A DNA stretch of 64,000 nucleotides, taken from Glandiceps talaboti. Taxonomy: Eukaryota; Hemichordata; Enteropneusta; Spengelidae. The position numbers and the translations under genes were made by a program. Within the stretch, counting starts at the first letter, position 1, and each line of letters begins with the position of its first letter. The notes beneath the pieces were generated by a model. The model did no database searches. It was not told the origin of the DNA and worked only from the letters and a program-made list of their open reading frames with translations. Positions 36,704 through 64,000 of this stretch are shown piece by piece. The stretch lies in NCBI RefSeq assembly GCF_964340395.1, contig NC_135568.1:3006001-3070000 (forward strand). The letters run 5' to 3'.

Positions 36704-39700
36704 CATATATGGACATGTGATTATTACACACATACCTGGAATTTCTTGCAACTAGTGGTGTATGAATCTGGTGCATCATATTCAGTGCAGTACAAAATAT
36801 CTTTGCATATATATATGCAAATGAGCGCACGATCATTCTCTGAAGACGAAATCGTGCGAATGGCCAGACTAGCATTTCTTGCGAAAATTGCTTAGATACA
36901 TTGACACTCGTGAGTCATTAGGTTGCCATGTTATGGGCTTATCAACAGCAGCCAATTGCAACAATTTGCAGAATCTTGAATGTCTTGAAAGCAGCAAACA
37001 CTTTGTGACAAGCTTGTTTGTGTATCATTTTTAAGCAGCCAGGGCCCTACTCAAAGTTTCTTCGATTACCAAATCAAGCAAGAAAATATATGTTCCTGTG
37101 TTTCTCGTTATACATATTAATACTGGTGAAAACAGATTTTGAAAAAAGTGTTACATAATTTGATTTCTTTTTTTCAGTTTAGCAGCAGTTGCGGACCAGA
37201 TTGAAGATATACAAGATGACGTAGACGATCTAGATGACCGTGTGACGACTACTGAAGGCAATGTACACAAACTGAACCAAACTGTAGAAGAACAACAGAA
37301 TGATATCAAGACAGTCAAAGAAGATGTGAAAGAACAAGAAGAACGTATAGATCAACTTGAAGAGGTAGTAGATGAAACAGTTGAAAAAGTGGAAGAAATA
37401 GACCATAAGGTGATTTTATTTAATAATTTTACAGTAGATTTGTCAAAACTGTTCGAAGTAAATGTGTGTAAGAAATTATGCAATCGTAAATGGCTAGTTT
37501 TTCAATTCTGAGAAACGGTGTTACTTTATCTTTTAACGTATTGCCACCATCATATGGTGATCGACTACTATGTTGGTGGCAAGATTTACCAAATAGCAAA
37601 GACACGTGAACTCAATTTTTACTACATTCAGTTTTGATCTTGTTCCCTTCTCTGTTTTGTATTTGATGAATAAATAGACTCTCAGTGCTGCTCCAGCCTG
37701 GTCAAAAGATGTGTCTAACGTCCTGAATATAAACAGTGATTATGATTGGCGTTTTTTGGCAATACGACTTGGGTATGGCTCAGAGGATATCAGAAACTGG
37801 GCAACTGCGCATGACCCAACCATGTCCTTGCTAAGGTGGGTAGTAAGTGTCAATATGGTATAGATATTTTCACCGAACCCAGATCGATTAAGCCTTCATT
37901 TGATGATATCCCAATAGGCGAGAGGAAAGTTTGAAATCCATGGTATTTATATCGATGTAAGTTCAACAAAAGCATTTAGAAATATTTGTTTCTGGTCAAT
38001 TATCATGTTGTGTACATTAATATTGATTTGTATGTAAATTTACTATAGCAAAGATTCTTACAACCTGCATAGCAGCTTATTACTGGCGTAAATGCTTGGT
38101 TAAACACGAAAACAATGAACATGCATAATATAATGGGTGCTCTATTTTTCGCATTCATCAAATAACTGTAACTTACTTGGTTTAAAGTGTATATTTTGTA
38201 CTGCTATGAACTAGTAAGTAATATATAATATATTTGAGCTAATGAAACCGTCATGTAATTTTGTAGTGAATGGTATACAACACACAAAGGTGCTGATGCC
38301 ACGTATGCTGTTCTGACGTCACTCAAAGAAATGGGAAGGAATGACTGTGTTGATATTATAGAGAGTGCATTAAAAGCGGCAGGTATTATCATTATATTCT
38401 GAATTATTTATTTCCAACTCTCTGCATCAATTCATCTCTCTTACATGTATATCATACACATCGTACTTTAACACAAGTACAAAGATAAAGAGTGTGACAT
38501 GAGGAACAAAGAGCCAACCATGACAATTAGCGGGTGAGTTCCATCCTCTTTCAACTCTTTCAGAAGTATGAATCTATCCTTTATTTTGTCACATTATCAT
38601 CACATCATACAGTAATGAAGTATGATAATGACGTCTCAATACAGTGTCAAAGAAATAATATTCGTTTTCATTCAGATGAGATGATACCACAAGCGCCACC
38701 AGAATTGACACACCCACCACCTGTATTTATCAGTTATCAATGGGATCACCAATCTGAAGTGAAAATACTGAAAGAGTATTTAGGTAAAGCCGGGTATGAT
38801 TGCTGGATGGATATCGGACAAATGGGTGGAGGTGATCAACTCTATCAGAAAATTGATGAAGGACTTCGAGGAGCAAAAGTTGTCCTCTCCATGGTGACTA
38901 ATAAATATGCACAATCTAAAAACTGCAATCACGAGGTAAGTCGTTTTCAGATTGTAGATTGATGAATATATAGAGGCACAATTATATCGAAGACAGGTAT
39001 GAAGATAGCTTTGGGAATTTTTAAAGATAAATGAAAATGATAACATCTCATCTGTTTTAATATCAACTTTTGCTACTGACAGAAAATGATGAGGAGCATT
39101 TTATCGATTATTAATGTCTTATTTTCAATTTCCAAACACTATTTCATTTACTCTCTATTTCATCGAAAAGGTAAACCTTGCAAATCTATTGAACAAACCA
39201 ATCATACCATTGCTATTAGAAGACGTTGAGTGGCCTCCCCCTGGACCAATGAGCGTTCTGTTCTCTCAGCTACTTTACATCAAATTTTGTGCAGGGAATG
39301 AACGTAAAGAGGGAGAACCATTTTGGCAAGATTCCAACTTTGCAGAGTTACTTGGTCAGATTAATATCCACGTGGCTCCAAACTCTGACAAAATACCTAA
39401 TGGTAAGTTTTATGAATTCATGAAATTATATGACGTATTACACAAACCTGATATACTACTTCAGTGACAATAATTTGAGAATATAAAGTATTGTATGGTC
39501 ATTTCAACAGGAGAATCAGTTGAAGAAGATACATCTCAAACAAGGGATCAGGTGGAAAAGGTCAGCAATACCCAATTATAAACAGTAAAGTGTTCAAGTA
39601 TCTAAGTCAACAAGTCTTATTTACATACGAATAGGACATTTTGATAGGAAAAAAACAAAACAAATATTTTGTAAAGTTTAACTTAATGTAAAAAAATCTT

Positions 39701-39754
39701 GTTACATTGAAATACGTCTTATGTATTACAGACATACAGACAGGCAGGCTGGAG

Positions 39755-39822
<68 letters not shown>

Positions 39823-41024
39823 GGCAGGCAGGCAGGCAGACAGAAAAATCTCTGACAAAATAATGCCAGAATGACGTATAATTGTTTTATCTTCAGATTA
39901 TCAATGACTCCGAGGTGTTCATTTCATATCAATGGGACAAACAGCCACAAGTAAAGACACTGTATTCTCGTCTCACGTCACTGGGATACACCTGTTGGTT
40001 TGATGTTATGCAAATGGGAGGTGGTGATAACCTATATTCTCAAATTGAAAGGGGTATAAGGAAAGCAAAGGTAAGTCTAATGATGATACAAATGGATATC
40101 CAATAGTATTTATGCCCTTTATCTGTCATAATGTTGACACATTGTTTGACATGTACGGGATTAGCAGTCCTCTACCGGAGCTAATATTAAAGTTTGTGTA
40201 GCGGGTTATAATCAACTCCTTGTCTGAGTTGTTGCTGAAGTCTTATCAGTAATGGATAGTGTAAGACAAAGGGGGATTTAGAAGGTGTGAATTGGGTTGA
40301 CCTTTGTAGTTCAAGTAAAACCAGTCCAGCAAAGTCAGAAACCATATGCCTGCACATGGAAGTATATGGGAAGCCTCCATGGTCTCAAGAATGAAATGCA
40401 AGAGGACCAAAATTACGAGGAGAACTTAATTACAGAGAAAAATAGTTGTGGAGTAAAAATAAGTCATACTACTGTACCATGAATGGAGTAGTGACTGCAC
40501 AGTAAGGGTTTAAGGATGAAGGGCACAACTGTAACCATTCAAAAGAAACGGTAAACATTTAAAAAACGAATTTTACACAGATCTTCATATGAGCTACACT
40601 ATAACATAAGACACGTCTCGTTGTTCCTATCAGGGCTTGTGAATGTTGCATGGCTTATTTGTTTCGCCGTGAACACTGCATGCTGTGTGTGTCCCCATCC
40701 GAATGTGTACACTTTTATCTCAGTATTATCATCACCTAGCCTGGCAAGGGGTGAGACAGTGTGTACTTTATCTTAATCTAGTCTAGCAAGGGTGAGATGG
40801 ACTAATCCTGCTATCCTGTGAACTTGTCGGGCATAAGTACAATAGACACCGGTGGAAAGATAAACAACGCGGCTCCGCCTTGTTGTTTATCTTTCCACTG
40901 GTGTCTATTGTATACTTAGATACTATACCACCACATATATATGTAATACATACATACATACATACATACATACATACATACATACATACATACATACATA
41001 CATACAGGCATACATACATACATA

Positions 41025-41056
<32 letters not shown>

Positions 41057-42596
41057 CACACACACATACACACACACACACATACATACATACATACATA
41101 CATACATACATACATACATACATACATACATACATACATACATACATACATACATACATACATACATACATACATGCAAAATGGATGAACACAACTCCAT
41201 GGTCCACCAAAGGACAATATACTAGTATATAACACCGTTTCTCTGAGCAATATTGTCTACATTCTTTTTGTGTTTTGCATAATATCGAGTAATTCCATTC
41301 TGGATTCCTCAATACAAACTTTGATTAAGATATATTGATGTAATTGATTGACTCAAATTGGTTTATCATGTACAGTAATTAATCACACTTATTGATTGTC
41401 TATTGTAGGTGGTTATTTGCTGTTGTACTAGTAAATATGCCCTGTCTGTTAACTGTCGACGAGAAGTGAGTTCAGCCGATGCGTTGAAGAAGCCATTAAT
41501 ACCTGTCGTACTTGAGAACATGGCATGGCCGCCTGAAGGACCAATGGCCTTACCATTTACACAACTTTTATATATTGATTTCAGTAATGATGAAAGTCAG
41601 AAAAACTTTGATGATTCAAACTTTGAGGAATTACTGCAAAAACTTGGTAGTTATGTGCAACGTCCGGAAAATAATAACGGAAATACTAAATTGGATGAGT
41701 TCCAGGAAACCACGAACGAGGCTGAAGACAACTCCGTGCGAGATAATATTTCTGAATCCGTTATAACAACCAATTTGACCCTAAAGGAAGAACAAGCAAC
41801 TGAAGATTCACCGAAAACAACTTTAAACAGGGATGAAGTGGATGAGGACAACTCCGTGCGAGATAATGTTTTTGAATCCAGCATGGCTGAATCAACAACA
41901 GAAACCCACTTGCCCCCAATGGAAGAACAAGCAACTGAAGATTCCCCGAAAATATCTTTAAATACCGAATTGGATGTATCACAGAAAACCGCGAACGAGG
42001 CTGAAGACGATTCTGAGAGAGGCAGTGCTTCTCAATCCAGTATGGTCGAATCGATAACAGAAACCACCTTGCCCCCAAAGGAAGAACAACCAACTGAAGA
42101 TTCCCCGAAAATATCTTTAAATACTGAATTTGATGTATCACAGAAAACCGCGAACGAGGCTGAAGACGATTCTGAGCGAGGCACTGCTTCTCAATCTAGT
42201 ATGACTGAATCGATAACAGAAGCTAAGTCGCCTCCAAAGGAAGAACAACCAACTGAAGATCCAATGATAACGTCATTGCCTAAAACGTCAGAGTCACCAT
42301 TATCACCAGCAAGGAAACCATCCACGGAGTCAATAGTCGAGGAAAAAGATACCAAACCATCTGTTGAAAGTAAATCATCCGAGTCCCTGCAAACCAACTC
42401 AGCTGATTCAGCTGTTGAAGCTGTAATACTCCCAGACAAACAAACACCTCTACATGCTCAGAAAACAAAGTCAACTGAAACGACGGATGCACCATTGCCT
42501 GAAAATAAGACGCCCAAGTTGGAATCAAAAGTCAAGGTGCAGAAAGTTTCACAACCACCAGTTACAAAGCAATCGTGTGCGTGTATTATGTTATAA
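31310..42596 (+). CDS. Solenoid-Death-TIR-TIR protein with CaaX-like C-terminus
   Basis: Eighteen coding exons join in frame: 31310-31455, 31714-31831, 32239-32390, 32821-32941, 33359-33489, 33806-33956, 34280-34463, 34892-35037, 35602-35817, 36367-36590, 37178-37409, 37678-37835, 38267-38382, 38676-38935, 39171-39402, 39511-39560, 39897-40070 and 41409-42596 (TAA). The product is 1332 residues. Order: alpha-helical solenoid (1-530), acidic coiled coil (about 530-607), Death domain (608-698), TIR1 (about 714-850), linker, TIR2 (about 885-1015), acidic repeat tail, and the C-terminus SCACIML. The ATG is the first in an exon that begins at a TTTTCAG acceptor (31271-31277), so an upstream non-coding exon is likely. 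The solenoid shows a weak resemblance to the N-terminus of Melted/VEPH1, not tested. Probable role: innate immune or cell-death signalling at a membrane. Confidence 0.88.
33533..33704. repeat. (GTAT)n microsatellite
   Basis: A long GTAT array with small interruptions in the intron between exons 33359-33489 and 33806-33956. It is the source of several spurious open frames. Confidence 0.95.
34010..34227. repeat. (GTAT)n microsatellite
   Basis: A second long GTAT array in the next intron, between exons 33806-33956 and 34280-34463, ending about 50 bases before the acceptor. Confidence 0.95.
36637..36702. repeat. (AGT)n trinucleotide repeat
   Basis: About 22 AGT units with one AAT interruption, in the intron after exon 36367-36590. 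Confidence 0.95.
37178..37409 (+). other. Coiled-coil exon of the Death/TIR gene
   Basis: This exon encodes about 77 residues rich in Asp, Glu, Val and Gln with regularly spaced hydrophobic positions (VADQIEDIQDDVDDLDDRV, then repeated VKEDVKEQEERIDQLEEV). The pattern predicts a parallel coiled coil between the solenoid and the Death domain, which could drive oligomerisation. Confidence 0.8.
37678..38382 (+). other. Death domain (two exons)
   Basis: Exons 37678-37835 and 38267-38382 encode residues 608-698. The typical landmarks are present: WRFLAIRLGYGSEDIRNW (helices 2-3), DPTMSLLSEWYTTH (helices 3-4), then YAVLTSLKEMGRNDCVDIIE (helices 5-6). This is the same order of landmarks as in MyD88, IRAK and other adaptor Death domains, which join receptors to kinases or caspases through homotypic contacts. 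Confidence 0.85.
38676..39402 (+). other. TIR domain 1
   Basis: Exons 38676-38935 and 39171-39402. Box 1 is VFISYQWD (from residue 715). The BB-loop region reads GYDCWMDIGQMGGGD, and the third strand GAKVVLSMVTNKY. Then come CNHE and KPIIPLLLEDVEWPPPGP. The Glu of CNHE (residue 785) is the last codon of the first exon and lines up by eye with the catalytic Glu of SARM1 and bacterial TIR NADases. The chain resembles the SARM1/bacterial type more than Toll-receptor TIRs. Confidence 0.85.
39747..39844. repeat. (CAGA)n microsatellite
   Basis: A CAGA/GGCA array in the intron just before the first TIR2 exon; it ends about 50 bases before the acceptor at 39896. Confidence 0.95.
40838..40912. repeat. 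31-bp inverted repeat (foldback)
   Basis: Arm 40838-40868 is the reverse complement of 40882-40912 with one mismatch, separated by 13 GC-rich bases. It lies in the intron that splits TIR2, directly before a long CATA microsatellite. The near-perfect arms suggest a recent foldback element or a stable RNA hairpin in the pre-mRNA. Confidence 0.9.
40949..41176. repeat. (CATA)n/(GCAC)n/(CA)n microsatellite
   Basis: CATA arrays on both sides of a GCAC block (about 41024-41056) and a short CA block, in the intron that splits TIR2. All long open frames here are repeat artefacts. Confidence 0.95.
41690..42250 (+). other. Acidic imperfect protein repeats in the tail of the Death/TIR protein
   Basis: About four tandem units of roughly 47 residues follow TIR2. 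The best conserved parts are KTANEAEDDSERG, SSMxESITET and LPPKEEQxTEDSPKISLNTE (x varies). The segment is rich in Glu, Ser, Thr and Pro, has no hydrophobic core and is probably disordered. The repeat is also clear at DNA level, so it expanded fairly recently. Many Ser/Thr residues in acidic surroundings are possible phosphorylation sites. Confidence 0.85.
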
Positions 42597-46273: not shown

Positions 46274-47347
46274 CTACAAGAATGAAAACCTTTTTGTTTG
46301 TTTCTTTGGTTTGATGGTGTGAACTTCAAACATTGCCTCGTTCGATAAATCATCAATGTTCTCTACACGTTTTACAGTAAGATTCTTTCCCTGCATACAT
46401 AGGTAGACATTAGGCATTGTCGCTGACTTGAAAACTGTTCTGTCAGTTCCTGGAGGTGATATTTTGTAGAACACCCGATCGTCAATCCGACGGACATCTT
46501 TTGGTTTAACGCCTTCACTTGTAACACGAGCGTATTGACCGCCAACCCTTGATGTACAACAAGCAATGTAACCTTTACTCGGACCAATGTCCATGATATA
46601 ATTACAAAGAAGTCCGTCTGTTGTTCCAATGCTTTTGTACATGTGAACTTTAACCTCGTGAAATCGTTCTTCCCCTTTCCGAATCGGAGTTGCTGTGACG
46701 TTATCGCCGACCTGTTTTAGACAACAGTCTGTTGCCATGGAATTCGAACATGAAACACTCTTGATAACTGCAGTGTACATCTTTTTATGTTTCAGCATAA
46801 CTTGTTGAGCTCCTACGGAGTCTATGGTGCACGATTTCACACGCTCTTGGAAAATAGGTCTTGATATGCTGATATGAACATCTCCGGACCCATCGTGATG
46901 ACTTGTTGTGTCTTTATTTGATCTCCTAACAATCAGTTCTGTTTCTTCGTCTATCATTCTAAACTGGTGTTTAATCTCGCCAGCTGATAGGCGAGTTAAA
47001 TCTACTCCGTTCAATGTAATCAGTTCATCGCCTTTGCAAAGTCCGAGTTCGTATGCGTAGCTATGAGGCATAATGTCGTATACTGTGTTCCTGCTACCGA
47101 TGATGGTTGCACCGAATTCCATTACTGGAAGAGTCGACAGGTAGAGTGGCACCACTTCTTCAGAAGCTGTAGGCTCGATGTCGACGCCGTCAACATAACT
47201 GTTAGGCTGTGAAATCTGTCTGAGGAATTTCTTAGAACCTGTAAACAGTCTTCCATGTAAATTTGAGTTGTCCTTGACTTTGCTCTTCTCGTTGACAGTT
47301 TCAGCAGAAGTCAGTTTCAATTTGTAAACAGTTGTTTCTTCAGGCAT
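46274..47347 (-). CDS. PDZ plus interleukin-1-like beta-trefoil protein, copy 1
   Basis: One uninterrupted frame of 357 residues with ATG at 47345-47347; the first Met follows a TATA-type promoter closely. No signal peptide. A PDZ domain spans about 64-143 (SYAYELGLCKGDELITLNGVDL is the clearest part). A beta-trefoil-like region spans about 168-347, starting KSCTIDSVGAQQVMLKHKKMY. Near its end, FKSATMPNVYLCM matches the IL-1 family pattern F-x-S-[ASLV]-x2-P-x2-[FYLIV]-[LI]-[SCA]-T except that the final Thr is Met. RVFYKI before it and NEAMFEV after it fall where IL-1 proteins have their last strands. Residues 249-250 (NY region) are an insertion relative to the other copies. The chain ends RFSFL, a class I PDZ ligand. 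An FGF-like trefoil is the main alternative. Confidence 0.8.
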   Translation of the reverse strand: MPEETTVYKLKLTSAETVNEKSKVKDNSNLHGRLFTGSKKFLRQISQPNSYVDGVDIEPTASEEVVPLYLSTLPVMEFGATIIGSRNTVYDIMPHSYAYELGLCKGDELITLNGVDLTRLSAGEIKHQFRMIDEETELIVRRSNKDTTSHHDGSGDVHISISRPIFQERVKSCTIDSVGAQQVMLKHKKMYTAVIKSVSCSNSMATDCCLKQVGDNVTATPIRKGEERFHEVKVHMYKSIGTTDGLLCNYIMDIGPSKGYIACCTSRVGGQYARVTSEGVKPKDVRRIDDRVFYKISPPGTDRTVFKSATMPNVYLCMQGKNLTVKRVENIDDLSNEAMFEVHTIKPKKQTKRFSFL

Positions 47348-47453
47348 TGTCGGTTCCCCTTTACCAAAAACGATGTGTAAGAACCTGTGTCTTGCTGTGA
47401 GCTCAGCAGTGCTAGCAATGTCGATGGTACTTTTCGTCTCGTGTAGTACCTAT

Positions 47454-47459
47454 TTTATA
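47454..47459 (-). promoter_or_regulatory. TATA box of copy 1
   Basis: On the minus strand GTATAAAATA lies about 105 bases upstream of the ATG, which predicts a 5' untranslated region of about 80 bases. The same motif lies at the same distance in copies 2 and 3. Confidence 0.65.
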
Positions 47460-47531
47460 CTACAATGTATGAACTTCCAGGCGATACTATTTTCTGATAG
47501 GTGTATACCACAACGTAATGTTACAGGGTCC

Positions 47532-47585
47532 GGGACTCCCGAGTTCTTCTGTAAACCCCGGATGACTAAAATAGACCTGACGTCG
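47532..47585 (-). promoter_or_regulatory. kappaB-like and CRE-like elements upstream of copy 1
   Basis: The palindromic GGGACTCCC at 47532-47540 resembles an NF-kappaB half-site pair. The adjoining block 47551-47585 (CCCCGGATGACTAAAA, then CTGACGTC) recurs upstream of the otherwise different copy 4 promoter, which argues that it is functional. TGACGTC is an ATF/CREB-type core. Confidence 0.45.
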
Positions 47586-48164
47586 ATGCCATTCACTCGG
47601 TGGTGTCTCTGACCTCTTGTATATGTGTGACCTAGGATGAACTACTCATATACTAATCACATGGTTGGTACATTTATCTAAGTTACAAATGTAGCTAGGG
47701 AAATGCCAGGGTTTGTTCAACCCCCGACTACGAATGAATATTCATACTGCAGACACAATTCATACATACAATATAATGCTGCTTTCTTATGATCTGGGTC
47801 TTGTTTCATCCACGAGGATTACTTTACAGGTATGGGGTCAGGGACATTATGTTGTTGAGGAAAATATGCAATTTCTTGTAGTCAATATCACGAGGGTGGA
47901 CATTATACATTCGGCCATGCACACGCGAGAACTATGTGTCCGACCGACCGACCTTCAAGTTATTGTTCGTATTTGTATAGTGTGGGTGGATGGTGTCTCA
48001 CATGCAATGACATCATACCTGGACTCAACAAATCAGCATGTGTTAAATACTTAATAGTTCTCGGGATTTTCCAAAGTAACACAGTAAGAAAAACGTTCAC
48101 TCGAAATTTCAGCGTAGTATGGAAATGTCCTTGCTCTAAATATAACGTGGCATGTTCCTCTGTG

Positions 48165-48245
48165 TAGTCCTGCTTGCAGACGATACACGGGTTTAGATTA
48201 TTGACATCGGACCCTCACGACTTACTCCGTATGCAAGCAGGACTA
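48165..48245. repeat. Inverted repeat with 14-bp arms
   Basis: TAGTCCTGCTTGCA (48165-48178) and its exact reverse complement (48232-48245) flank about 53 bases. Copies in the next two units carry single substitutions in the right arm. It resembles a very short foldback element that was present before the unit was multiplied. Confidence 0.75.
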
Positions 48246-48689
48246 GCCTACGTGAGTCACCTTTTTTTCTCAAAATACACCATTACGAAAATATTTGTAA
48301 ATATATTTACGTGTTTGTGTTTTGCTTTGAAGACGTAATCCCCAGGAATTATCATAATTTTAGTATGGTTACCTGTGTGCATGCTACTACAACTCTGACG
48401 TCGCCATGCGTTTTCTGAGGGGCATCCAACAATTAGTGTATTAGTCTGTGTTTATGTAGTTGACCTAAATACTCTGGTAGTGGTACCAATCTCATTGCTA
48501 CTATAGCTAGTGATGATAAGTAATTCAGCTTGAGTTTCAGGAAATGAATAATGGTTGAAATAAATTTTACAAAGAAAACTCAACTCAAATCCCATACAGA
48601 GCTAGTCTGGATGCCAACGTGCCAACCTTTGTTTTGTAATGTAAGTTATGTGTTAGGCTGTATATTGTTGTCTTTGTGTTTTCTGCCTT

Positions 48690-48892
48690 TTGATGTGATG
48701 TGATATGTGATGTGATGTGATGTGATGTGATGTGTTGAGTTCTTGTGTTGTGTTGTGTTGTGTTGTGTTGTGTTGTGTTGTGTTTTCTTGTGTTTTCTTG
48801 TGCCGTGTTGTGTTGTGTTGCTTTGTTTTGTGCTGTGTTGTGTTGTTCTGTTCTGTTATGTTATGTTATGTTGTGTTTTGTTTTGTTGTGTA
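48690..48892. repeat. (TGTGATG)n / (TGTTG)n array, unit 1
   Basis: Tandem TGATG and then TGTTG pentamers. Homologous arrays at 51900-52091 and 55101-55277 differ in repeat number. Confidence 0.92.
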
Positions 48893-48959
48893 GACTTGTA
48901 GACATGTAAATGAATTAAAATGACACAAAAATCCTATATTCTTCAAATATGTTCACATT

Positions 48960-49498
48960 TTTATTCGAATCATCTCCAACGATTAACTACTATGCTACAG
49001 AAAAAAATACAATATCTCGGGTTTCTTGCTAAAAATAACTTATCAGAGCAAATAAAACAATTATACTCATCTAGTGACATTTAAAAGTCTTCAGATGTAA
49101 AGAAATTTCCACTCTTTTTAGATATCAAAGGAACTTTTCTCTGTAAACTTAAGGTAAATATAAATGTGACTAAATAAAAATTAATATATAAAACTATCTT
49201 TTTAAGTTATAATATTTAAAAATACAAACATGTTAAACTCTACATGAGTACTGAGTACTCTAGAATAAATTATAAACCCAATTTGGGCAACTTAGAACAA
49301 CTTTTATCAAAACGGTGTCTTAAATTAAAATGGTTAGACTACACATACGAACCGTTTGATAAAGTTGTTCTATCGATGCATAGCATCAACTGCTAGCAGA
49401 CAAAATATTTTAAATCCTATCCTCACAGAGGACATACTTTGTCTGGAACTAAGAAATTAAGGCACATACTATGTCTGGTCTAGTGAGAGTTAGTCTTT
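48960..49498 (-). other. 3' untranslated region of copy 2 (shared type)
   Basis: On the minus strand the sequence from the stop to AATAAA at 48960-48965 is nearly identical to the 3' flanks of copies 3 and 4, and differs from that of copy 1. The length is about 540 bases. Confidence 0.6.
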
Positions 49499-50566
49499 CT
49501 ACAAAAATGAAAACCTTTTTGTTTGTTTCTTTGGTTTGATGGTGTGAACTTCAAACATTGCCTCGTTCGATAAATCATCAATGTTCTCTACACGTTTTAC
49601 AGTAAGATTCTTTCCCTGCATACATAGGTAGACATTAGGCATTGTCGCTGACTTGAAAACTGTTCTGTCAGTTCCTGGAGGTGATATTTTGTAGAACACC
49701 CGGTCGTCAATCCGACGGACATCTTTTGGTTTAACGCCTTCACTTGTAACACGAACGTATTGACCGCCAACCCTTGATTTACAACAAGTAATGTAACCTT
49801 TACTGGGACCAATGTCCATGATACAAGGAAGTCCGTCTGTTGTTCCAATGCTTTTATACATGTGAACTTTAACCTCGTGAAATCGTTCTTCCCCTTTGCG
49901 AATCGGAGTTGCTGTGACGTTATCGCCGACCTGTTTTAGACAACAGTCTGTTGCCATGGAATTCGAACATGAAACACTTTTGATAACTGCAGTGTACATC
50001 TTTTTATGTTTCAGCATAACTTGTTGAGCTCCTACGGAGTCTATGGTGCACGATTTCACACGCTCTTGGAAAATAGGTCTTGATATGCTGATATGAACAT
50101 CTCCGGACCCATCGTGATGACTTGTTGTGTCTTTATTTGATCTCCTAACAATCAGTTCTGTTTCTTCGTCTATCATTCTAAACTGGTGTTTAATCTCGCC
50201 AGCTGATAGGCGAGTTAAATCTACTCCGTTCAATGTAATCAGTTCATCGCCTTTGCAAAGTCCGAGTTCGTATGCGTAGCTATGAGGCATAATGTCGTAT
50301 ACCGTGTTCCTGCTACCGATGATGGTTGCACCGAATGCCATTACTGGAAGAGTCGACAGGTAGAGTGGCACCACTTCTTCAGAAGCTGTAGGCTCGATGT
50401 CGACGCCGTCAACATAACTGTTAGGCTGTGAAATCTGTCTGAGGAATTTCTTAGAACCTGTAAACAGTCTTCCATGTAAATTTGAGTTGTCCTTGACTTT
50501 GCTCTTCTCGTTGACAGTTTCAGCAGAAGTCAGTTTCAATTTGTAAACAGTTGTTTCTTCAGGCAT
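49499..50566 (-). CDS. PDZ plus interleukin-1-like beta-trefoil protein, copy 2
   Basis: A single-exon frame of 355 residues, ATG at 50564-50566, same domain order as copy 1. The N-terminal part is almost identical to copy 1 (one clear change, MAFGA for MEFGA in the PDZ loop). The C-terminal part follows copy 4 instead (LPCIMDIG, ITCCKSR, QYVRV). The IL-1-type motif FKSATMPNVYLCM and the C-terminal RFSFL are intact. All four copies are open, so there is no sign of pseudogene decay. Confidence 0.8.
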   Translation of the reverse strand: MPEETTVYKLKLTSAETVNEKSKVKDNSNLHGRLFTGSKKFLRQISQPNSYVDGVDIEPTASEEVVPLYLSTLPVMAFGATIIGSRNTVYDIMPHSYAYELGLCKGDELITLNGVDLTRLSAGEIKHQFRMIDEETELIVRRSNKDTTSHHDGSGDVHISISRPIFQERVKSCTIDSVGAQQVMLKHKKMYTAVIKSVSCSNSMATDCCLKQVGDNVTATPIRKGEERFHEVKVHMYKSIGTTDGLPCIMDIGPSKGYITCCKSRVGGQYVRVTSEGVKPKDVRRIDDRVFYKISPPGTDRTVFKSATMPNVYLCMQGKNLTVKRVENIDDLSNEAMFEVHTIKPKKQTKRFSFL

Positions 50567-50669
50567 TGTCAGTTCCCCTTTACCAAAAACGATGTGTAAG
50601 AACCTGTGTCTTGCTGTGAGCTCAGCAGTGCTAGCAATGTCGATGGTACTTTTCGTCTCGTGTAGTACC

Positions 50670-50804
50670 TATTTTATACTACAATGTATGAACTTCCAGG
50701 CGATACTATTTTCTGATAGGTGTATACCACAACGTAATGTTAAAGGGTCCGGGACTCCCGAGTTCTTCTGTAAACCCCGGATGACAAAAATAGACCTGAC
50801 GTCG
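50670..50804 (-). promoter_or_regulatory. Promoter of copy 2: TATA, kappaB-like and CRE-like elements
   Basis: The TATA box (minus strand) is at 50673-50678, GGGACTCCC at 50751-50759, and the CCCCGGATGAC...CTGACGTC block follows it. Order and spacing match copy 1. Confidence 0.45.
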
Positions 50805-50819
50805 GCGCCATTCACACGT

Positions 50820-52699
50820 TGGTGTCTCTGACCTCTTGTATATGTGTGACCTAGGATGAACTACTCATATACTAATCACATGGTTGGTACATTTATCTAA
50901 GTTACAAATGTAGCTAGGGAAATGCCAGGGTTTGTTCAGCCCCCGACTACGAATGAATAGTGCAGACACAATTCATACATACAATATCATGCTGCTTTCT
51001 TATGATCTGGGTCTTGTTTCATCCACGAGGATTACTTTACAGGTATGGGGTCAGGGGCATTATGTTGTTGAGGAAAATATGCAATTTCTTGTAGTCAATA
51101 TCACGAGGGTGGACATTATACATTCGGCCATGCACACGCGAGAACTATGTGTCCGACCGACCGACCTTCAAGTTATTGTTCGTATTTGTATAGTGTGGGT
51201 GGATGGTGTCTCACATGCAATGACATCATACCTGAACTCAACAAATCAACATGTGTTAAATACTTAATAGTTCTAGGGATTTTCCAAAGTAACACAGTAA
51301 GAAAAACGTTCACTCGAAATTTCAGCGTAGGATGGAAATGTCCTTGCTCTAAATATAACGTGGCATGTTCCTCTGTGTAGTCCTGCTTGCAGACGATACA
51401 CGGGTTTAGATTACTGACATCGGACCCTCACGACTTACTCCGTATGCAAGCATGACTAGCCTACGTGAGTCACCTTTTTTTCTCAAAATACACCATTACG
51501 AACATATTTGTAAATATATTTACGTATTTGTGTTTTCCTTTGAAGACATAATCCTCAGAAATTATTATAATTTTAGTATGGTTACCTGTGTGCATGCTAC
51601 TACAACTCTGACATCGCCATGCGTTTTCTGAGGGGCATCCAACAATTAGTGTATTCTGTGTTTATGTAGTTGACCTAAATACTCTGGTAGTGGTACCAAT
51701 CTCATTGCTACTATAGCTAGTGATGATAAGTAATTCAGCTTGAGTTTCAGGAAATGAATAATGGTTGAAATAAATTTTACAAAGAAAACTCAACTCAAAT
51801 CCCATACAGAGCTAGTCTGGATGCCAACGTGCCAACCTTTGTTTTATAATGCAAGTTATGTGTTAGGCTGTATATTGTTGTCTTTGTGTTTTCTGCCCTT
51901 TGATGTGATGTGATATGTGATGTGATGTGATGTGATGTGATGTGATGTGTTGAGTTCTTGTGTTGTGTTGTGTTGTGTTGTGTTGTGTTTTCTTGTGTTT
52001 TCTTGTGCCGTGTTGTGTTGTGTTGTGTTGTGTTGTGCTGTGTTGTGTTGTTCTGTTATGTTATGTTATGTTGTGTTTTATTTTGTTGTGTAGACTTGTA
52101 GACATGTAAATGAATTAAAATGACACAAAAATCCTATATTCTTCAAATATGTTCACATTTTTATTCGAATCATCTCCAACGATTAACTACTATGCTACAG
52201 AAAAAAAAAACAATATCTCGGGTTTCTTGCTAAAAATAACTTATCAGAGCAAATAAAGCAATTATACTCATCTAGTGACATTTAAAAGTCTTCAGATGTA
52301 AAGAAATTTCCACTCTTTTTAGATATCAAAGGAACTTTTCTCTGTAAACTTAAGGTAAATATAAATATGACTAAATAAAAATTAATATATAAAACTATTT
52401 TTTTAAATTATAATATTTAAAAATACAAACATATTAAACTCTACATGAGTACTGAGTACTCTAGAATAAACTATAAACCCAATTTGGGCAACTTAGAACA
52501 ACTTTAATTAAAACAGTGTCTTAAATTAAAATGGTTAGACTACACATACGAACCGTTTGATAAAGTTGTTCTATCGATGCATAGCATCAACTGCTAGCAG
52601 ACAAAATATTTTAAATCCTATCCTCACAGAGGACATACTTTGTCTGGAACTAAGAAATTAAGGCACATACTATGCCCGGTCTAGTGAGAGTTAGTCTTT
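50820..52699. other. Intergenic part of tandem unit 2-3
   Basis: Near-identical to the first intergenic unit. It contains the inverted-repeat relic (about 51380-51460), the pentamer array at 51900-52091 and the 3' untranslated region of copy 3 (from about 52160). No additional gene. Confidence 0.7.
51900..52091. repeat. (TGTGATG)n / (TGTTG)n array, unit 2
   Basis: Same composition as the array at 48690-48892 with different unit numbers. Confidence 0.92.
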
Positions 52700-53767
52700 C
52701 TACAAGAATGAAAACCTTTTTGTTTGTTTCTTTGGTTTGATGGTGTGAACTTCAAACATTGCCTCGTTCGATAAATCATCAATGTTCTCTACACGTTTTA
52801 CAGTAAGATTCTTTCCCTGCATACATAGGTAGACATTAGGCATTGTCGCTGACTTGAAAACTGTTCTGTCAGTTCCTGGAGGTGACATTTTGTAGAACAC
52901 CCGATCGTCAATCCGACGGACATCTTTTGGTTTAACGCCTTCACTTGTAACACGAACGTATTGACCGTTAACCCTTGATTTACAACAAGTAATGTAACCT
53001 TTACTCGGACCAATGTCCATGATACAAGGAAGTCCGTCTGTTGCCCCAATGCTTTTATACATGTGAACTTTAACCTCGTGAAATCGTTCTTCCCCATTTC
53101 GTATCGGAGTTGCTGTGACGTTGTCGCCGACATGTTTTAGACAACAGTCTGTTGCCATGGAATTCGAACATGAAACACTTTTGATAAAAGCAGTGTACAC
53201 CTTCTTATGTTTCAGCATAACTTGTTGAGCTCCTACGGAGTCTATAGTGCACGATTTCACACGCTCTTGGAAAATAGGTCTTGATATGCTAATATGAACA
53301 TCTCCGGACCCATCGTGATGACTTATTGTGTCTTTATTTGATCTCCTAACAATCAGTTCTGTTTCTTCGTCTATCATTCTAAACTGGTGTTTAATCTCGC
53401 CAGCTGATAGGCGAGTTAAATCTACTCCGTTCAATGTAATCAGTTCATCGCCTTTGCAAAGTCCGAGTTCGTATGCGTAGCTATGAGGCATAATGTCGTA
53501 TACCGTGTTCCTGCTACCGATGATGGTTGCACCGAATGCCATTACTGGAAGAGTCGACAGGTAGAGTGGCACCACTTCTTCAGAAGCTGTAGGCTCGATG
53601 TCGACGCCGTCAACATAACTGTTAGGCTGTGAAATCTGTCTGAGGAATTTCTTAGAACCTGTAAACAGTCTTCCATGTAAATTTGAGTTGTCCTTGACTT
53701 TGCTCTTCTCGTTGACAGTTTCAGCAGAAGTCAGTTTCAATTTGTAAACAGTTGTTTCTTCAGGCAT
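52700..53767 (-). CDS. PDZ plus interleukin-1-like beta-trefoil protein, copy 3
   Basis: A single-exon frame of 355 residues, ATG at 53765-53767. It is closest to copy 2. Private changes include KVYTAFIKS for KMYTAVIKS in the first trefoil strands, KHVGDN for KQVGDN, RVNGQYV for RVGGQYV and YKMSPPG for YKISPPG. It shares GATDG and PIRNGEE with copy 4. Private changes cluster in the trefoil, not the PDZ domain. The end RFSFL is kept. Confidence 0.8.
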   Translation of the reverse strand: MPEETTVYKLKLTSAETVNEKSKVKDNSNLHGRLFTGSKKFLRQISQPNSYVDGVDIEPTASEEVVPLYLSTLPVMAFGATIIGSRNTVYDIMPHSYAYELGLCKGDELITLNGVDLTRLSAGEIKHQFRMIDEETELIVRRSNKDTISHHDGSGDVHISISRPIFQERVKSCTIDSVGAQQVMLKHKKVYTAFIKSVSCSNSMATDCCLKHVGDNVTATPIRNGEERFHEVKVHMYKSIGATDGLPCIMDIGPSKGYITCCKSRVNGQYVRVTSEGVKPKDVRRIDDRVFYKMSPPGTDRTVFKSATMPNVYLCMQGKNLTVKRVENIDDLSNEAMFEVHTIKPKKQTKRFSFL

Positions 53768-53869
53768 TGTCAGTTCCCCTTTACCAAAAACGATGTGTAA
53801 GAACCTGTGTCTTGCTGTGAGCTCAGCAGTGCTAGCAATGTCGATGGTACTTTTCGTCTCGTGTAGTAC

Positions 53870-54010
53870 CTATTTTATACTACAATGTATGAACTTCCAG
53901 GCGATACTATTTTCTGATAGGTGTATACCACAACGTAATGTTAAAGGGTCCGGGACTCCCGAGTTCTTCTGTAAACCCCGGATGACTAAAATAGACCTGA
54001 CGCCGGCGCC
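53870..54010 (-). promoter_or_regulatory. Promoter of copy 3: TATA and kappaB-like elements, CRE-like core altered
   Basis: The TATA box is at 53874-53879 and GGGACTCCC at 53952-53960. The CRE-like core reads TGACGCC instead of TGACGTC, so this copy may respond differently. Confidence 0.45.
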
Positions 54011-54019
54011 ATTCACACG

Positions 54020-55886
54020 TTGGTGTCTCTGACCTCTTGTATATGTGTGACCTAGGATGAACTACTCATATACTAATCACATGGTTGGTACATTTATCTA
54101 AGTTACAAATGTAGCTAGGGAAATGCCAGGGTTTGTTCAGCCCCCGACTACGAATGAATAGTGCAGACACAATTCATACATACAATATCATGCTGCTTTC
54201 TTATGATCTGGGTCTTGTTTCATCCACGAGGATTACTTTACAGGTATGGGGTCAGGGGCATTATGTTGTTGAGGAAAATATGCAATTTCTTGTAGTCAAT
54301 ATCACGAGGGTGGACATTATACATTCGGCCATGCACACGCGAGAACTATGTGTCCGACCGACCGACCTTCAACTTATTGTTCGTATTTGTATAGTGTGGG
54401 TGGATGGTGTCTCACATGCAATGACATCATACCTGGACTCAACAAATCAACATGTGTTAAATACTTAATAGTTCTCGGGATTTTCCAAAGTAACACAGTA
54501 AGAAAAACGTTCACTCGAAATTTCAGCGTAGGATGGAAATGTCCTTGCTCTAAATATAACGTGGCATGTTCCTCTGTGTAGTCCTGCTTGCAGACGATAC
54601 ACGGGTTTAGATTACTGACATCGGACCCTCACGACTTATTCCGTATGCAAGCAGAACTAGCCTACGTGAGACACCTTTTTTTCTCAAATTACACCATTAC
54701 GAAAATATTTGTAAATATATTTACGTATTTGTGTTTTCCTTTGAAGACATAATCCTCAGAAATTATTATAATTTTAGTATGGTTACCTGTGTGCATGCTA
54801 CTACAACTCTGACATCGCCATGCGTTTTCTGAGGGGCATCCAACAATTAGTGTATTCTGTGTTTATGTAGTTGACCTAAATACTCTGGTAGTGGTACCAA
54901 TCTCATTGCTACTATAGCTAGTGATGATAAGTAATTCAGCTTGAGTTTCAGGAAATGAATAATGGTTGAAATAAATTTTACAAAGAAAACTCAACTCAAA
55001 TCCCATACAGAGCTAGTCTGGATGCCAACGTGCCAACCTTTGTTTTGTAATGTAAGTTATGTGTTAGGCTGTATATTGTTGTCTTTGTGTTTTCTGCCTT
55101 TTGATGTGATGTGATATGTGATGTGATGTGATGTGATGTGTTGAGTTCTTGTGTTGTGTTGTGTTGTGTTGTGTTTTCTTGTGTTTTCTTGTGCCGTGTT
55201 GTGTTGTGTTGTTTTGTTTTGTGCTGTGTTGTGTTGTTCTGTTCTGTTATGTTATGTTGTGTTTTGTTTTGTTGTGTAGACTTGTAGACATGTAAATGAA
55301 TTAAAATGACACAAAAATCCTATATTCTTCAAATATGTTCACATTTTTATTCGAATCATCTCCAACGATTAAGTACTATGCTACAGAAAAAAAATACAAT
55401 ATCTCGGGTTTCTTGCTAAAAATAACTTATCAGAGCAAATAAAACAATTATACTCATCTAGTGACATTTAAAAGTCTTCAGATGTAAAGAAATTTCCACT
55501 CTTTTTAGATATCAAAGGAACTTTTCTCTGTAAACTTAAGGTAAATATAAATATGACTAAATAAAAATTAATATATAAAACTATTTTTTTAAATTATAGT
55601 ATTTAAAAATACAAACATATTAAACTCTACATGAGTACTGAGTACTCTAGAATAAATTATAAACCCAATTTGGGCAACTTAGAACAACTTTTATCAAAAC
55701 AGTGTCTTAAATTAAAATGGTTAGACTACACATACGAACTGTTTGATAAAGTTGTTCTATCGATGCATAGCATCAACTGCTAGCAGACAAAATATTTTCA
55801 ATGATATCCTCACAGAGGACATACTTTGTCTGGAACTAAGAAATTAAGGCACATACTATGCCTGGTCTAGTGAGAGTTAAGTCTTT
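54020..55886. other. Intergenic part of tandem unit 3-4
   Basis: Third copy of the intergenic unit. It contains the inverted-repeat relic, the pentamer array at 55101-55277 and the 3' untranslated region of copy 4 (from about 55340). No additional gene. Confidence 0.7.
55101..55277. repeat. (TGTGATG)n / (TGTTG)n array, unit 3
   Basis: Third and shortest copy of the pentamer array. Confidence 0.92.
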
Positions 55887-56933
55887 CTACAAGAATGAAA
55901 ACCTTTTGGTTTGTTTCTTTGGTTTGATGGTGTGAACTTCAAACATTGCCTCGTTCGATAAATCATCAGTGTTCTCTACACGTTTTACAGTAAGATTCTT
56001 TCCCTGCATACATAGGTAGACATTAGGCATTGTCGCTGACTTGAAAACTGTTCTGTCAGTTCCTGGAGGTGATATTTTGTAGAACACCCGGTCGTCAATC
56101 CGACGGACATCTTTTGGTTTAACGCCTTCACTTGTAACACGAACGTATTGACCGCCAACCCTTGATTTACAACAAGTAATGGAACCTTTACTGGGACCAA
56201 TGTCCATGATACAAGGAAGTCCGTCTGTTGCCCCAATGCTTTTATACATGTGAACTTTAACCTCGTGAAATCGTTCTTCCCCATTTCGTATCGGAGTTCC
56301 TGTGACGTTATCACCGACCTGTTTTAGACAACAGTCTGTTGCCATGGAATTCGAACATGAAACACTTTTGATAACTGCAGTGTACATCTTTTTATGTTTC
56401 AGCATAACTTGTTGAGCTCCTACGGAGTCTATGGTGCACGATTTCACACGCTCTTGGAAAATAGGTCTTGATATGCTGATATGAACATCTCCGGACCCAT
56501 CGTGATGACTTGTTGTGTCAGCATTTGATCTCCTTATAATCAGTTCTGTTTCATCGTCTATCATTCTAAACTGGTGTTTAATCTCGGCAGCTGATAAGCG
56601 AGTTAAATCTACTCCGTTCAATGTAATCAGTTCATCTCCTTTGCAAAGTCCGAGTTCGTATGCGTAGCTATGAGGCACAATGTCGTATACCGTGTTTCTG
56701 GTATCAGTGATGATCGCACCGAATTCCATTACTGGAAGAGTCGACAGGTAGAGTGGCACCACTTCTTCAGAAGCTGAAGGCTCGATGTAACTGTTAGGCT
56801 GGGAAATCTGTCTGAGGAATTTCTTAGCACCTGTAAACAGTTTTCCATGTAAATTTAAGTTGCCTTTGTTCTTCTCCATGATTATTTCAGCAGAAGTCTG
56901 TTTCAATTTCAAAATAGCTGTTTCTTCAGGCAT
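55887..56933 (-). CDS. PDZ plus interleukin-1-like beta-trefoil protein, copy 4 (divergent N-terminus)
   Basis: A single-exon frame of 348 residues from the ATG at 56931-56933. The frame is open nine codons further upstream but has no ATG there, and this Met matches the start of the other copies. The N-terminal 145 residues differ at many positions (MPEETAILKLKQTSAEI, no DGVD insert, IITDTRNTVYDIV in the PDZ domain). From about residue 148 on it is almost identical to copies 2 and 3. Private changes include NVTGTP and GSITCC. It keeps the IL-1-type motif and RFSFL end. Its upstream DNA is unlike that of copies 1-3, so it probably retains an ancestral promoter. Confidence 0.8.
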   Translation of the reverse strand: MPEETAILKLKQTSAEIIMEKNKGNLNLHGKLFTGAKKFLRQISQPNSYIEPSASEEVVPLYLSTLPVMEFGAIITDTRNTVYDIVPHSYAYELGLCKGDELITLNGVDLTRLSAAEIKHQFRMIDDETELIIRRSNADTTSHHDGSGDVHISISRPIFQERVKSCTIDSVGAQQVMLKHKKMYTAVIKSVSCSNSMATDCCLKQVGDNVTGTPIRNGEERFHEVKVHMYKSIGATDGLPCIMDIGPSKGSITCCKSRVGGQYVRVTSEGVKPKDVRRIDDRVFYKISPPGTDRTVFKSATMPNVYLCMQGKNLTVKRVENTDDLSNEAMFEVHTIKPKKQTKRFSFL

Positions 56934-58135: not shown

Positions 58136-60977
58136 ATGGCGAGTTTTACCATAATTGTTTTGGTTTTTACGTCTATGTTGGCTGTATGTTTGGGTACGTA
58201 CTATTTATTACGTTATTCGAGGAGACGTGCCACACTTTCCGGATGTATTTAACGACGGTTGGGATTGTAATGCGTTAATAATGTAGTCTAAGCATCCCGA
58301 AACTTGAAACGACTCTATACCTAGGCATACTGACTTGATTTTACATACTGGTCACATTTATGCTATCTTGATCATCCAATTGAATAGTGATGATACATAC
58401 TTGATTAATTTGTGAGAAAACTCGGATGCAAAGTAGAAAATATCCACAACCGTTATTGTATTTGCAAATAATAACTTTAAATTTCTTTAGTACAAATTGC
58501 TCCAAATATTGGACAAAGTGTGAATTAAACTGATCAATTCGTTCAGAAGTGTCAACGATGTCAATGTTTAAATGAGTGAAAGTTTGTGAATATTATCCCA
58601 TTCCACTTTCACTTTCGATGCATCTGTGTTGACTGCACTAAGTACCCTGGGACATAGTCCATAACATGACAATACGAAAATCAGCTCAAATTTCACTGTA
58701 TCTTGTGGGGTTGCCACTATTTTGCACAAAGGCCTGTAGACAAGTAGCAACAAAATTACATTCAAAATTAATTTCAATTCCCCACAAGCAGTGTACATTG
58801 ATTCGATGGACTTTCCATTGAAGGGTATTACCCTAATACTCATAGCCGCGATGACGTATAGCTACGAGCAGACCGTTCCCCCCAACCCGCTCGTGATTAT
58901 CAAATACGCCCTAGTTTACAGCATAAATACCCAATGGGCCCTTTGTACAAAGATATGAGTGGTAAAGTGGTATTTAAGAACTTGAATGTATATTATTGTT
59001 ACAATGCATATATAGGATGTTGAAGATTACATTATTTGTTGATGATAAAACTTGCTTTAATACGTCAAATAAATTAGTTTCACGCAGACTTTTCTATCAA
59101 CTCGTTCTTTGCAGGACGTGTAAGTCAGACTTTATCCTAGTATGCACTACACAATATAGAATGTCATGGATTAACCTCGCCATTGTTTTGTTATATATAT
59201 CTAGCCGATAGATGGCGCAGTGATGGTCGATGTGGTCCTGACTCGGCATTGTCATCAGGTTTAGCGGCAGAGTGTGATCCGTACAGCTTGTATCCATGCT
59301 GTTCATTGGATGGTTGGTGTGGTAACACATTGTCACACTGTGAATGCAATGGTTGTGTTGACTTTCGAATGAAACTAGCAAATGGATCAAATGTTATCGA
59401 GAAAGGTACAACAAATACGACCATGTAAATTTGTTCATTTTTCGGCTGTGGATATAATGGAAAAAAATGATTACAGTTCACTGGTATTGCAACTTGACTG
59501 TCAAGTATGCACTGAACGCAACATCAATGCTTACAACACGCATGTTTTAAACAAAAATATTTCAACTGTTATATTATAATCAAGAAACATTTTATTTGTT
59601 TCCAGGTGCTAATGGTTGGCCAAGTTTCTCAAAGTTGTGGGGTAACTACCCACAAGACGCTTCCCGAGCTCTTATTAAGAAATGCAAACTCCCTGATTGG
59701 TTGATTGGTCAGAATTCATGTGCCATTCGTGTAAGCTATTCCTTGATTACATCAGGTAAAGGTTGAAAACTTGTTCCATGGTTTTCAAACATATTGCTGT
59801 TTTCTATTCATTCCGAATTTTAGGAACCTCTAATTCTCCTTCCAAATTTCCCCATCCCCTTAGATTCTCCGTATTGATAATTCCCTGATGTTTTTTTTTC
59901 TTCTAACTATTCTATTTCCATATGTTGTATGTTCAATGTCCTCAACCCACAGTCTGTCCTTTTCATTCTTTCTTTTTCTTTTTTCTCATCTGCCCATCTC
60001 CTTTGATCCCGTCTGTGATTCCAAAGTCTCTTAATTCATCCTTTCAAGTTTAATTTAGTAATATGGACACAATTTTGTTACCAGACTACAAGTGCCAATG
60101 ATGTTGACAAAATACAGTAACTATACATGCTTAAGTTTCCACCAAATGATGTGTGTTGTTCTGCATCAATGATGTCACACTTGTAAGTATGGTCCCTGAT
60201 CATTTATCCATCTTGTCTCAGCAACAGAGTTTGAACACTTAGTTAATTTCATAGTTCCTGCATACTTAGCTTCCATCATGGCGATCATTTTCAGGCTACT
60301 TGTGCAAGGTTTTGTCAACAGCAGAAATGGATTTTTTTCTTCCAGGTCAAAAACTAAATGACATACAGAAAGGAGAATGCAATTGGGCACAAGTTGTCAA
60401 CGGAGACGGAGATAAGTATATCATTCGAGTCGCCACCATGCGGTGTTATTTGGAAAGTCGCAAAGGTTCGGCTGACATTGTCTCTAGCAGTAAAACTTCT
60501 TTTCAGGTGAGAATGAATTATCGAAAGTAAAACGAAATGCATTGTGATAGGTTTTTCCCATGTCGACATCTCTCAGTTACAGTCTTTTGGCAATCCTCCA
60601 ACATTCTAAACACCCACATGATAATGAGCACTGGAAGGGTATCTAACGCATTAAAAGATTGACAGGCGATTTATTCGTTTGGAAATGAACTTTCGAACAT
60701 ATGTATCATCATTGAGGTTTAAAGAGAACTTGTGTATGTACGAACACACACACACACACACACACACGGTATAATAATCATCTGTGACACTTGAATGATT
60801 TATATTACATCATGGATTTGTTTATTTTTCTGAATATAGGGTTACAAGGGAATTATCGTTTTCCAAAGTTGTAAATTCCAGACTGCGACTGGTCATGTTG
60901 ATCTATGGGATGGCAGCAAATGTGCTGGCACCTGTTATTTCGACTCTTGTAAAGACATGAGACTGTTCATATTCTAG
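58136..60977 (+). CDS. Secreted Tae4-type peptidoglycan amidase with hevein-like domain
   Basis: Five exons join in frame: 58136-58193, 59205-59405, 59606-59755, 60346-60506 and 60840-60977 (TAG at 60975-60977), giving 235 residues. Residues 1-20 (start MASFTIIVLVFTSMLAVCL) are a signal peptide. Residues 21-75 hold eight cysteines with CCSLDGWCGNTLSHC, close to the hevein-type chitin-binding signature. Residues 88-235 match the T6SS amidase effector 4 (Tae4) pattern: WPSFSKLWGNYP, the nucleophile Cys 125 in NSCAIRVSYSL, and His 209 in ATGHVDLWDG. The bacterial family cleaves peptidoglycan peptide stems. Animal homologues are known as domesticated amidase effectors (dae). The product is probably an exported antibacterial enzyme that binds N-acetylglucosamine polymers. 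It contains introns, so it is not bacterial contamination. Confidence 0.88.
60746..60768. repeat. (CA)n microsatellite
   Basis: A short CA run in the last intron of the amidase gene. Confidence 0.9.
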
Positions 60978-63350: not shown

Positions 63351-64000
63351 AAAAATGAAATGTCTCACCTCGCCTCTTCTCTGAAACCATCTTTCCCTGT
63401 GTTTTTACACGTTTAGCATGTTCCTTGTTTGATATGTCGGGTATTCGAATTTATTCATGGAAAGATACACATGTCATTTTGCTCTTTCTACTTGATCGAA
63501 ATGATATTCTTGATTTTTTTCTCTGTATAGGCTTATTTTTCTTTTCACGTTTGATATTATGTTCAACGATACATTTTACTTGTTACTATAATTATTCTTT
63601 AAAATTGATAAATACCTACCTTGGCTGGATCAACAATAATAATAGAGTTGAATGTTGAAATACAGTATGTTGTAAGCCATGTCTTGGATACTTCAGGACC
63701 CCACTCTAAACTGTACAAGACGACAAAGAAACAGGACAAAAATGCCGACGTAAAAACAATGCACCATCCCAAGATACAATAGCAGCAATTCAAGATAGGA
63801 TTCGGTGGCTTAGTAGAATTCATATCGTTATTCTCTGTTGTGTCATGTTCTTGTGCAGATGTTACTGAATTGGAACGTCTCGACTTCAGGAAAAGTATCG
63901 GCATCAACATGGTCGCTGGCATAGTGATCAAGGAGCTAATAAAAGCGATGTACAAAGTACCGAGTGAAAATATGAATGGACCTAGGGTGACCACCTTTGT
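63189..64000 (-). CDS. Polycystin-1-like membrane protein, 3' end (5' part outside window)
   Basis: Two exons on the minus strand: 63620-64000 (continues beyond the window) and 63189-63275 (TGA at 63189-63191), joined at phase 0. They encode a TM segment (GPFIFSLGTLYIAFISSLIT), a charged loop with SRRS, then CYCILGWCIVFTSAFLSC and VVLYSLEWG, then TWLTTYCISTFNSIIIVDPA followed by K and a last TM (ALVLSFVMALIFMLLKK). The order F-VLY-WG-S-WL-SF-SI-V-P-K-L is that of polycystin-1/PKD1L/REJ proteins between the PLAT domain and the channel part. The protein stops 13 residues after that TM. There is no polycystin (TOP) domain and no TRP-like channel segment, so it is a short form, or the stop exon is an alternative 3' end. 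Confidence 0.75.
63276..63619. other. Last intron of the polycystin-like gene, with (CT)n repeat
   Basis: The intron separates exons 63620-64000 and 63189-63275 and holds a CT microsatellite at about 63307-63348. In the transcript this reads (GA)n and lies about 30 bases before the acceptor. Confidence 0.7.

Follow-up and report, generated by a model that had tools for sequence, protein, structure and literature searches.

We analysed a stretch of 64,000 nucleotides (referred to below as the window) from the genome of Glandiceps talaboti (contig NC_135568.1, positions 3,006,001 to 3,070,000 of the forward strand), an acorn worm (Hemichordata, Enteropneusta) and as such an invertebrate deuterostome, in a part of the animal kingdom where IL-1 cytokines are not expected, as IL-1 is usually held to be restricted to vertebrates. 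The window contains four tandem single-exon genes (A46, B49, C52 and D55), all located on the minus strand as open reading frames (ORFs), and each of them encodes a PDZ domain followed by an IL-1-like sequence. Judging from sequence comparisons, these genes are quite probably hemichordate homologs of the IL-1 superfamily with the PDZ-plus-trefoil order of the fish protein nIL-1F, and the best reading of their products is that of nIL-1F-like pro-cytokines in an invertebrate. The combination of PDZ and IL-1 domains in this order is already known from fish nIL-1F; its occurrence in a hemichordate was not encountered among the open-licence papers searched. The family is therefore best filed as a divergent homolog of the IL-1 superfamily and not as a proven cytokine.

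The four window proteins exhibit 92-99% identity as a set, and in the alignment with B49 as the reference the remaining three show 99, 98, and 92% identity. The repeat unit of the array is ~3.2 kb long, and 300-base reference stretches match the copies at the level of 95-99%, with the exception of one simple-repeat stretch (62-96%). Among the six window pairs the Ka/Ks ratio ranges from 0.20 to 0.53, and the copies look constrained, because synonymous differences exceed the non-synonymous ones in 6/6 pairs (one-sided Fisher P 0.001-0.042, the pairs not being independent of one another). The ORFs, the Pfam matches described below, and the high mutual identity confirm the four tandem PDZ and IL-1-like genes reported in the initial annotation of this locus. 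Three of the genes also have an ORF of 111-113 codons in their upstream region, read from the opposite (plus) strand (47713-48054, 50932-51267 and 54133-54468), which may be a product of chance in a young duplication.

A search of the genome (590 Mb in 47 contigs, with the window located on contig C22) reveals that the array belongs to a larger family that includes intron-bearing members, for which the copy counts given here are lower bounds. Chromosomes other than that of the array carry three divergent paralogs with introns, E and F being located on contig C12 and G on contig C10. Paralog E (C12:3115435-3106339), for which five coding exons were found, possesses both the PDZ domain and the putative trefoil; our model is the same as the NCBI entry "uncharacterized protein LOC144442661" (P0001) over 332 residues starting from EPSAPTTES, with the first two residues different and exon 1 provisional. 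Paralog F (C12, ~3098830-3095431) comprises the trefoil and, according to the alignment, the second half of a PDZ domain, the latter without a Pfam match, and paralog G (C10:25944615-25945496) comprises the trefoil and a possible upstream PDZ remnant that matches no Pfam family. Whole-genome searches link these sequences in both directions: a window protein recovers F with the E-value of 5.4e-5, and G recovers the window proteins with the E-value of 2.2e-6. A further copy was found on contig C5 (16557923-16558965), where 1.75 kb is 98.5% identical to the D55 region and a 4-base deletion breaks the reading frame. The genome scan with the Pfam IL1 family returned, beyond G, one other match only, which has two internal stop codons and was taken as chance. 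As the copies are spread over four contigs, each 21-29 Mb long, contamination with vertebrate DNA was rejected.

The C-terminal half of the proteins is matched by the Pfam IL1 family in all four window copies (E-values from 2.6e-4 to 0.042, all below the curated cut-off, which is a criterion of detection and not a biological one), as well as in G (3.2e-5) and F (0.1). In B49, the IL-1 signature F-x-S-A-x-x-P-x-x-Y-L-C, already pointed out in the initial annotation, begins at residue 304, and the chance expectation for its 12-residue core is ~1e-4 occurrences in a protein of that composition. By eye, the core is also found in the other window copies and in E, and it deviates at one position in F and at two positions in G; the T that comes next in the IL-1 signature, whose full form is the PROSITE pattern, is missing. 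A shorter form of the pattern is printed in PMC7144542 (here and below, statements from the literature refer to excerpts of the cited papers). A chance match to the motif was rejected on the basis of permuted and reversed controls, the reversed trefoils of B49 and G giving no Pfam match at E <= 1 (0/2). A PDB search with a profile built from six family sequences identified 32 distinct chains at E <= 10, of which 30 belong to the IL-1 family and none to FGF. The 30 chains are mostly variants of IL-18, IL-1beta, and IL-33, with many variants of one molecule, and include a chain of EBI-005, which we take to be an IL-1. The best matches are IL-33 (8.9e-4), IL-18 (0.003), and IL-1beta (0.2), and the first two chains alone are below 0.01.

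A comparison of profiles against profiles also places the family nearer to IL-1 than to FGF. For this analysis five family trefoils were compared with six human IL-1 proteins and with seven human FGFs of similar diversity; the human sequences were entered by hand, and FGF was the sole other trefoil family included. Against the IL-1 profile the family obtained a score of 46.4 (P 8.7e-7, probability 91.5), with a local alignment over residues 23-153 of IL-1beta, versus 29.2 (25.9) against the FGF profile, and the maximum among 300 column-permuted controls each was 18.0 for IL-1 and 27.0 for FGF. When the six IL-1 sequences are left out one at a time, the probability stays within 64-93, and IL-1 is ahead of FGF in 8/8 comparisons, made with the full set and with seven subsets. 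In the global mode the alignment covers residues 1-153 of IL-1beta; the identity to IL-1beta in the profile alignment is 17%. Profile scores clearly favoring another trefoil family, named in the initial annotation as a result that would speak against an IL-1 relationship, were not obtained, and the Pfam comparison it had suggested lists IL1 (below the cut-off) for all four window copies and FGF for none of them.

The gene structure of the paralogs provides a further line of comparison. E has introns of phase 0, phase 2 (inside the PDZ domain, in the R of GLR), phase 1 (just before the trefoil) and phase 1 (before strand 4), and the last of these, in an alignment made by eye, is common to E, F, and G at one codon, the distance to the S of YKS or YRS being the split codon plus nine residues. 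In the profile alignment this split codon falls on V40 of mature IL-1beta, which would also be the split codon of human IL1B, provided that the coding exon lengths we assume for that gene (47, 52, 202, 165, 131, 213) are right. The additional phase-1 intron before the trefoil in E fits IL-1. The IL-1beta gene has been described as having introns of phases (II, 0, I, I, 0) and as encoding the trefoil in its last three exons (PMC4880838, for the phases only).

A number of results weigh against the assignment to IL-1. Taken singly, all proteins stay below the Pfam IL1 cut-off of 25 bits (the best are G with 24.0 and C52 with 21.1), and paralog E, a clear member of the family, has no Pfam IL1 match at all. 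The scores against single human sequences are weak: 31.5 for IL-36RA, 28.1 for IL-18, 25.1 for IL-1RA, 25.0 for FGF2, 24.9 for IL-33, 24.6 for IL-1beta, 22.5 for FGF8, and 19.3 for IL-1alpha, with the remaining FGFs lower. Searches of protein databases found no relative outside Glandiceps talaboti, where paralog E alone was recovered, and as these searches require shared 5-residue words they do not demonstrate absence. Since a PDB search with a single query ranks synthetic trefoil designs first (Symfoil, 1.1e-6, summed over three weak repeats), with natural IL-1beta at 0.16, one sequence alone does not decide. Pfam FGF matches G weakly (E-value of 0.0096), the FGF profile scores of both the family and the E+F+G subset (32.7, probability 50) exceed the permuted maximum, and E, F, and G lack the phase-0 intron that comes last in IL-1. 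A phase-1 intron lies where strand 4 begins in 3/3 FGF genes inspected by eye in this genome, and 2/3 of them have a phase-0 intron after it. Because of this similar intron in FGF genes, the strand-4 intron supports the IL-1/FGF group of trefoils more than IL-1 alone. Finally, the family profile also matches trefoil-type PDB chains of RsgI5 (0.012) and arabinofuranosidase B (0.8).

The points concerning FGF would be explained if the C-terminal half were a divergent FGF-type trefoil, or one that branched off before the split of IL-1 and FGF, fused to a PDZ domain and not specifically related to IL-1; the Symfoil designs, presumably derived from FGF1, would agree with such an origin, as would the similar strand-4 intron of the FGF genes; FGF is a beta-trefoil, the fold presumed for the acorn-worm family. 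We regard this explanation as unlikely, given that IL-1 surpasses FGF throughout the profile comparisons, where the scores with FGF are clearly lower, that FGF is absent from the 32 PDB chains, and that the true FGFs of this genome are separate genes, all 15 matches at E <= 0.01 being located on contigs C9 and C16. The Pfam scans list FGF for G alone, where it remains below its cut-off (16.3 of 24 bits), and not for E, F, or any window copy. Membership in the FGF family was accordingly rejected, and the FGF-like alternative offered in the initial annotation is disfavored. Another explanation, consistent with RsgI5 and arabinofuranosidase B, which we take to be sugar-binding-type trefoils, and with the lack of an IL1 match at the level of the cut-off, assumes some other beta-trefoil (e.g. 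a sugar-binding one like that of arabinofuranosidase B) or a convergent fold, fused to PDZ in an intracellular scaffold and not in a cytokine. This appears highly improbable: when seven family proteins were scanned against Pfam at E <= 10, with filters that discard most weak matches, the only trefoil families listed were IL1 and, in the case of G, FGF, and the alignment with IL-1 covers the whole domain.

In the N-terminal half of the window proteins, the Pfam families PDZ_6 and PDZ are matched with E-values of 3.5e-5 to 6.9e-5 and 6.6e-4 to 1.5e-3, respectively, both slightly below the curated cut-off. In a PDB search with a three-sequence PDZ profile, 20/20 matches at E <= 0.01 are of the PDZ type, as judged by the names of the molecules. 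A crude hydropathy test of B49 detected no signal peptide (for 15-residue segments beginning at the first 40 positions, the best value is -0.13), in agreement with the initial annotation, which described the proteins as lacking one. The C-termini of all four window proteins are S-F-L (46274-46291 and equivalents) and resemble a class I PDZ ligand according to the general rule for such ligands, and paralog E ends otherwise; by eye, the window PDZ domain itself seems to be without the usual class I His.

The IL-1-like proteins of the acorn worm can be compared with several known systems. They resemble IL-1beta, IL-18, and IL-33 in a profile match that extends along the entire mature domain, in being leaderless, and in the phase-1 introns that flank the first trefoil exon in E, and differ from them in the absence of the last phase-0 intron and in the limited identity to IL-1beta given above. 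To our knowledge IL-1beta, IL-18, and IL-33 possess no PDZ domain, and IL-16 is a PDZ-containing cytokine without a trefoil. In fish, on the other hand, nIL-1F of the lumpfish unites a PDZ and an IL-1 domain in a protein of 352 aa (accession MN689249) encoded by seven coding exons (PMC7144542), which refutes the premise of the initial annotation that PDZ domains are not part of IL-1 proteins; its proposal of an invertebrate IL-1-related family with a PDZ domain is supported, as regards homology, by the profile and PDB comparisons. Cleavage sites for caspase-1 and thrombin have been predicted in the lumpfish protein, in cells of trout and grass carp nIL-1F acts as an antagonist of IL-1beta, and nIL-1F and nIL-1Fm are reported in these sources from jawed fishes only (PMC7144542, PMC4929537). 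The acorn-worm proteins are like nIL-1F in that the PDZ domain precedes the IL-1 domain in one protein of ~350 aa (348-357 in the window) without a signal peptide, and unlike it in that five coding exons were found in E; the likeness is drawn from published descriptions of the fish protein. These last two points would be compatible with a PDZ fusion independent of that in fish nIL-1F, with IL-1 homology intact and a protein that may now act intracellularly, an explanation that partly agrees with the one preferred here. We find it rather unlikely, yet worth retaining, in view of the same domain order, the similar length, and the absence of a signal peptide in either protein.

According to the literature excerpts, no IL-1 orthologue is known outside vertebrates, whereas IL-1R-like receptors are, from which it was concluded that receptors preceded ligands (PMC9020223, where earlier reports of IL-1-like activity in invertebrates are also cited). 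IL-1 has been described as absent from invertebrates and jawless vertebrates (PMC9382457), IL-1beta as having evolved ~425 million years ago (PMC5861070), and the four cytokine families reported from a sea cucumber transcriptome do not include IL-1 (PMC7161275). In open-licence PubMed Central, none of the matches listed describes an IL-1 gene from a hemichordate or another invertebrate. If the window genes are indeed IL-1 homologs, they would move the origin of the ligand back to early deuterostomes, provide a candidate ligand for the invertebrate IL-1R-like receptors, and suggest that IL-1 started as a PDZ-anchored pro-protein. It is conceivable, although we do not quite lean towards it, that nIL-1F is a direct descendant of the PDZ-bearing form, that IL-1beta, IL-18, and IL-33 lost the PDZ domain, and that the ligand and IL-1R-like receptors co-evolved long before jaws.

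The linker between the two domains contains the motif HDG[ST]G, which the alignments reveal in the four window proteins and in paralog E within an otherwise gapped region. Together, the leaderless sequence, the PDZ domain, and this conserved motif suggest a pro-protein that is docked in the cytosol through its PDZ domain and processed by a caspase-like enzyme. According to such a model, the pro-protein would stay cytosolic, its PDZ domain bound to the C-termini of partner proteins, a caspase-type protease would cleave the linker between HD and G(S/T)G, and the released C-terminal trefoil would leave the cell by a non-classical route and could act on an Ig-TIR (IL-1R-like) receptor, either as an agonist or as an antagonist, the latter as reported for fish nIL-1F. 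For comparison, IL-1beta is cut at D116-A117 (PMC7144542).

As to the origin of the array, the window copies are devoid of introns, whereas E has four. Most likely, an E-like transcript gave rise to a reverse-transcribed intron-free copy, which then underwent tandem amplification. The copy on C5 ends abruptly and shows no poly(A) tract and no target-site duplication of at least 7 bases; for this reason reverse transcription is a step that we infer.

Coordinates of the PDZ and IL-1-like trefoil genes in the window and of their domains
Feature	Position	Strand	Description and evidence
Gene A46, PDZ + IL-1-like trefoil protein	46274..47347	-	357 aa, single exon; ORF, Pfam, alignment
A46 PDZ domain, residues 64-143	46919..47158	-	PDZ_6 match at residues 89-142
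A46 IL-1-like trefoil region, residues 164-347	46307..46858	-	Pfam; 2-residue insertion relative to other copies
Gene B49, PDZ + IL-1-like trefoil protein	49499..50566	-	355 aa, single exon; ORF, Pfam, alignment
B49 PDZ domain, residues 64-143	50138..50377	-	Pfam and PDB profile search
B49 linker motif HDGSG at PDZ/trefoil junction, candidate caspase-type site	50102..50116	-	alignments; putative function
B49 IL-1-like trefoil region, residues 164-345	49532..50077	-	Pfam, PDB profile search, profile-profile comparison
Gene C52, PDZ + IL-1-like trefoil protein	52700..53767	-	355 aa, single exon; top Pfam IL1 score among the four (21.1 bits)
C52 PDZ domain, residues 64-143	53339..53578	-	Pfam
C52 IL-1-like trefoil region, residues 164-345	52733..53278	-	Pfam, PDB profile search
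Gene D55, PDZ + IL-1-like trefoil protein	55887..56933	-	348 aa from shared ATG, single exon; most divergent of the four
D55 PDZ domain, residues 57-136	56526..56765	-	Pfam and PDB profile search
D55 IL-1-like trefoil region, residues 157-338	55920..56465	-	Pfam, PDB profile search, profile-profile comparison

Outside the array, the window contains exons of several other genes. Exons encoding TIR, a domain that also serves in signalling by IL-1 receptors, adjoin the array in convergent orientation (38618-42200, plus strand), with TIR_2 matches at 38618-38962 (E-value of 1.9e-17) and 41409-42200 (1.6e-7); by eye, further exons are likely from ~31 kb onwards, and the three tested contain no Pfam domain. 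An exon of a Cys-loop ligand-gated channel is located at 10341-10883 on the plus strand (PF02932, E-value of 1.6e-17). The exon at 59141-59428 (plus strand) shows a weak match to the chitin-recognition family PF00187 (E-value of 0.006, below the cut-off), and the exon at 63599-63997 (minus strand), without a Pfam match above the cut-off, resembles by eye a polycystin-type membrane protein.

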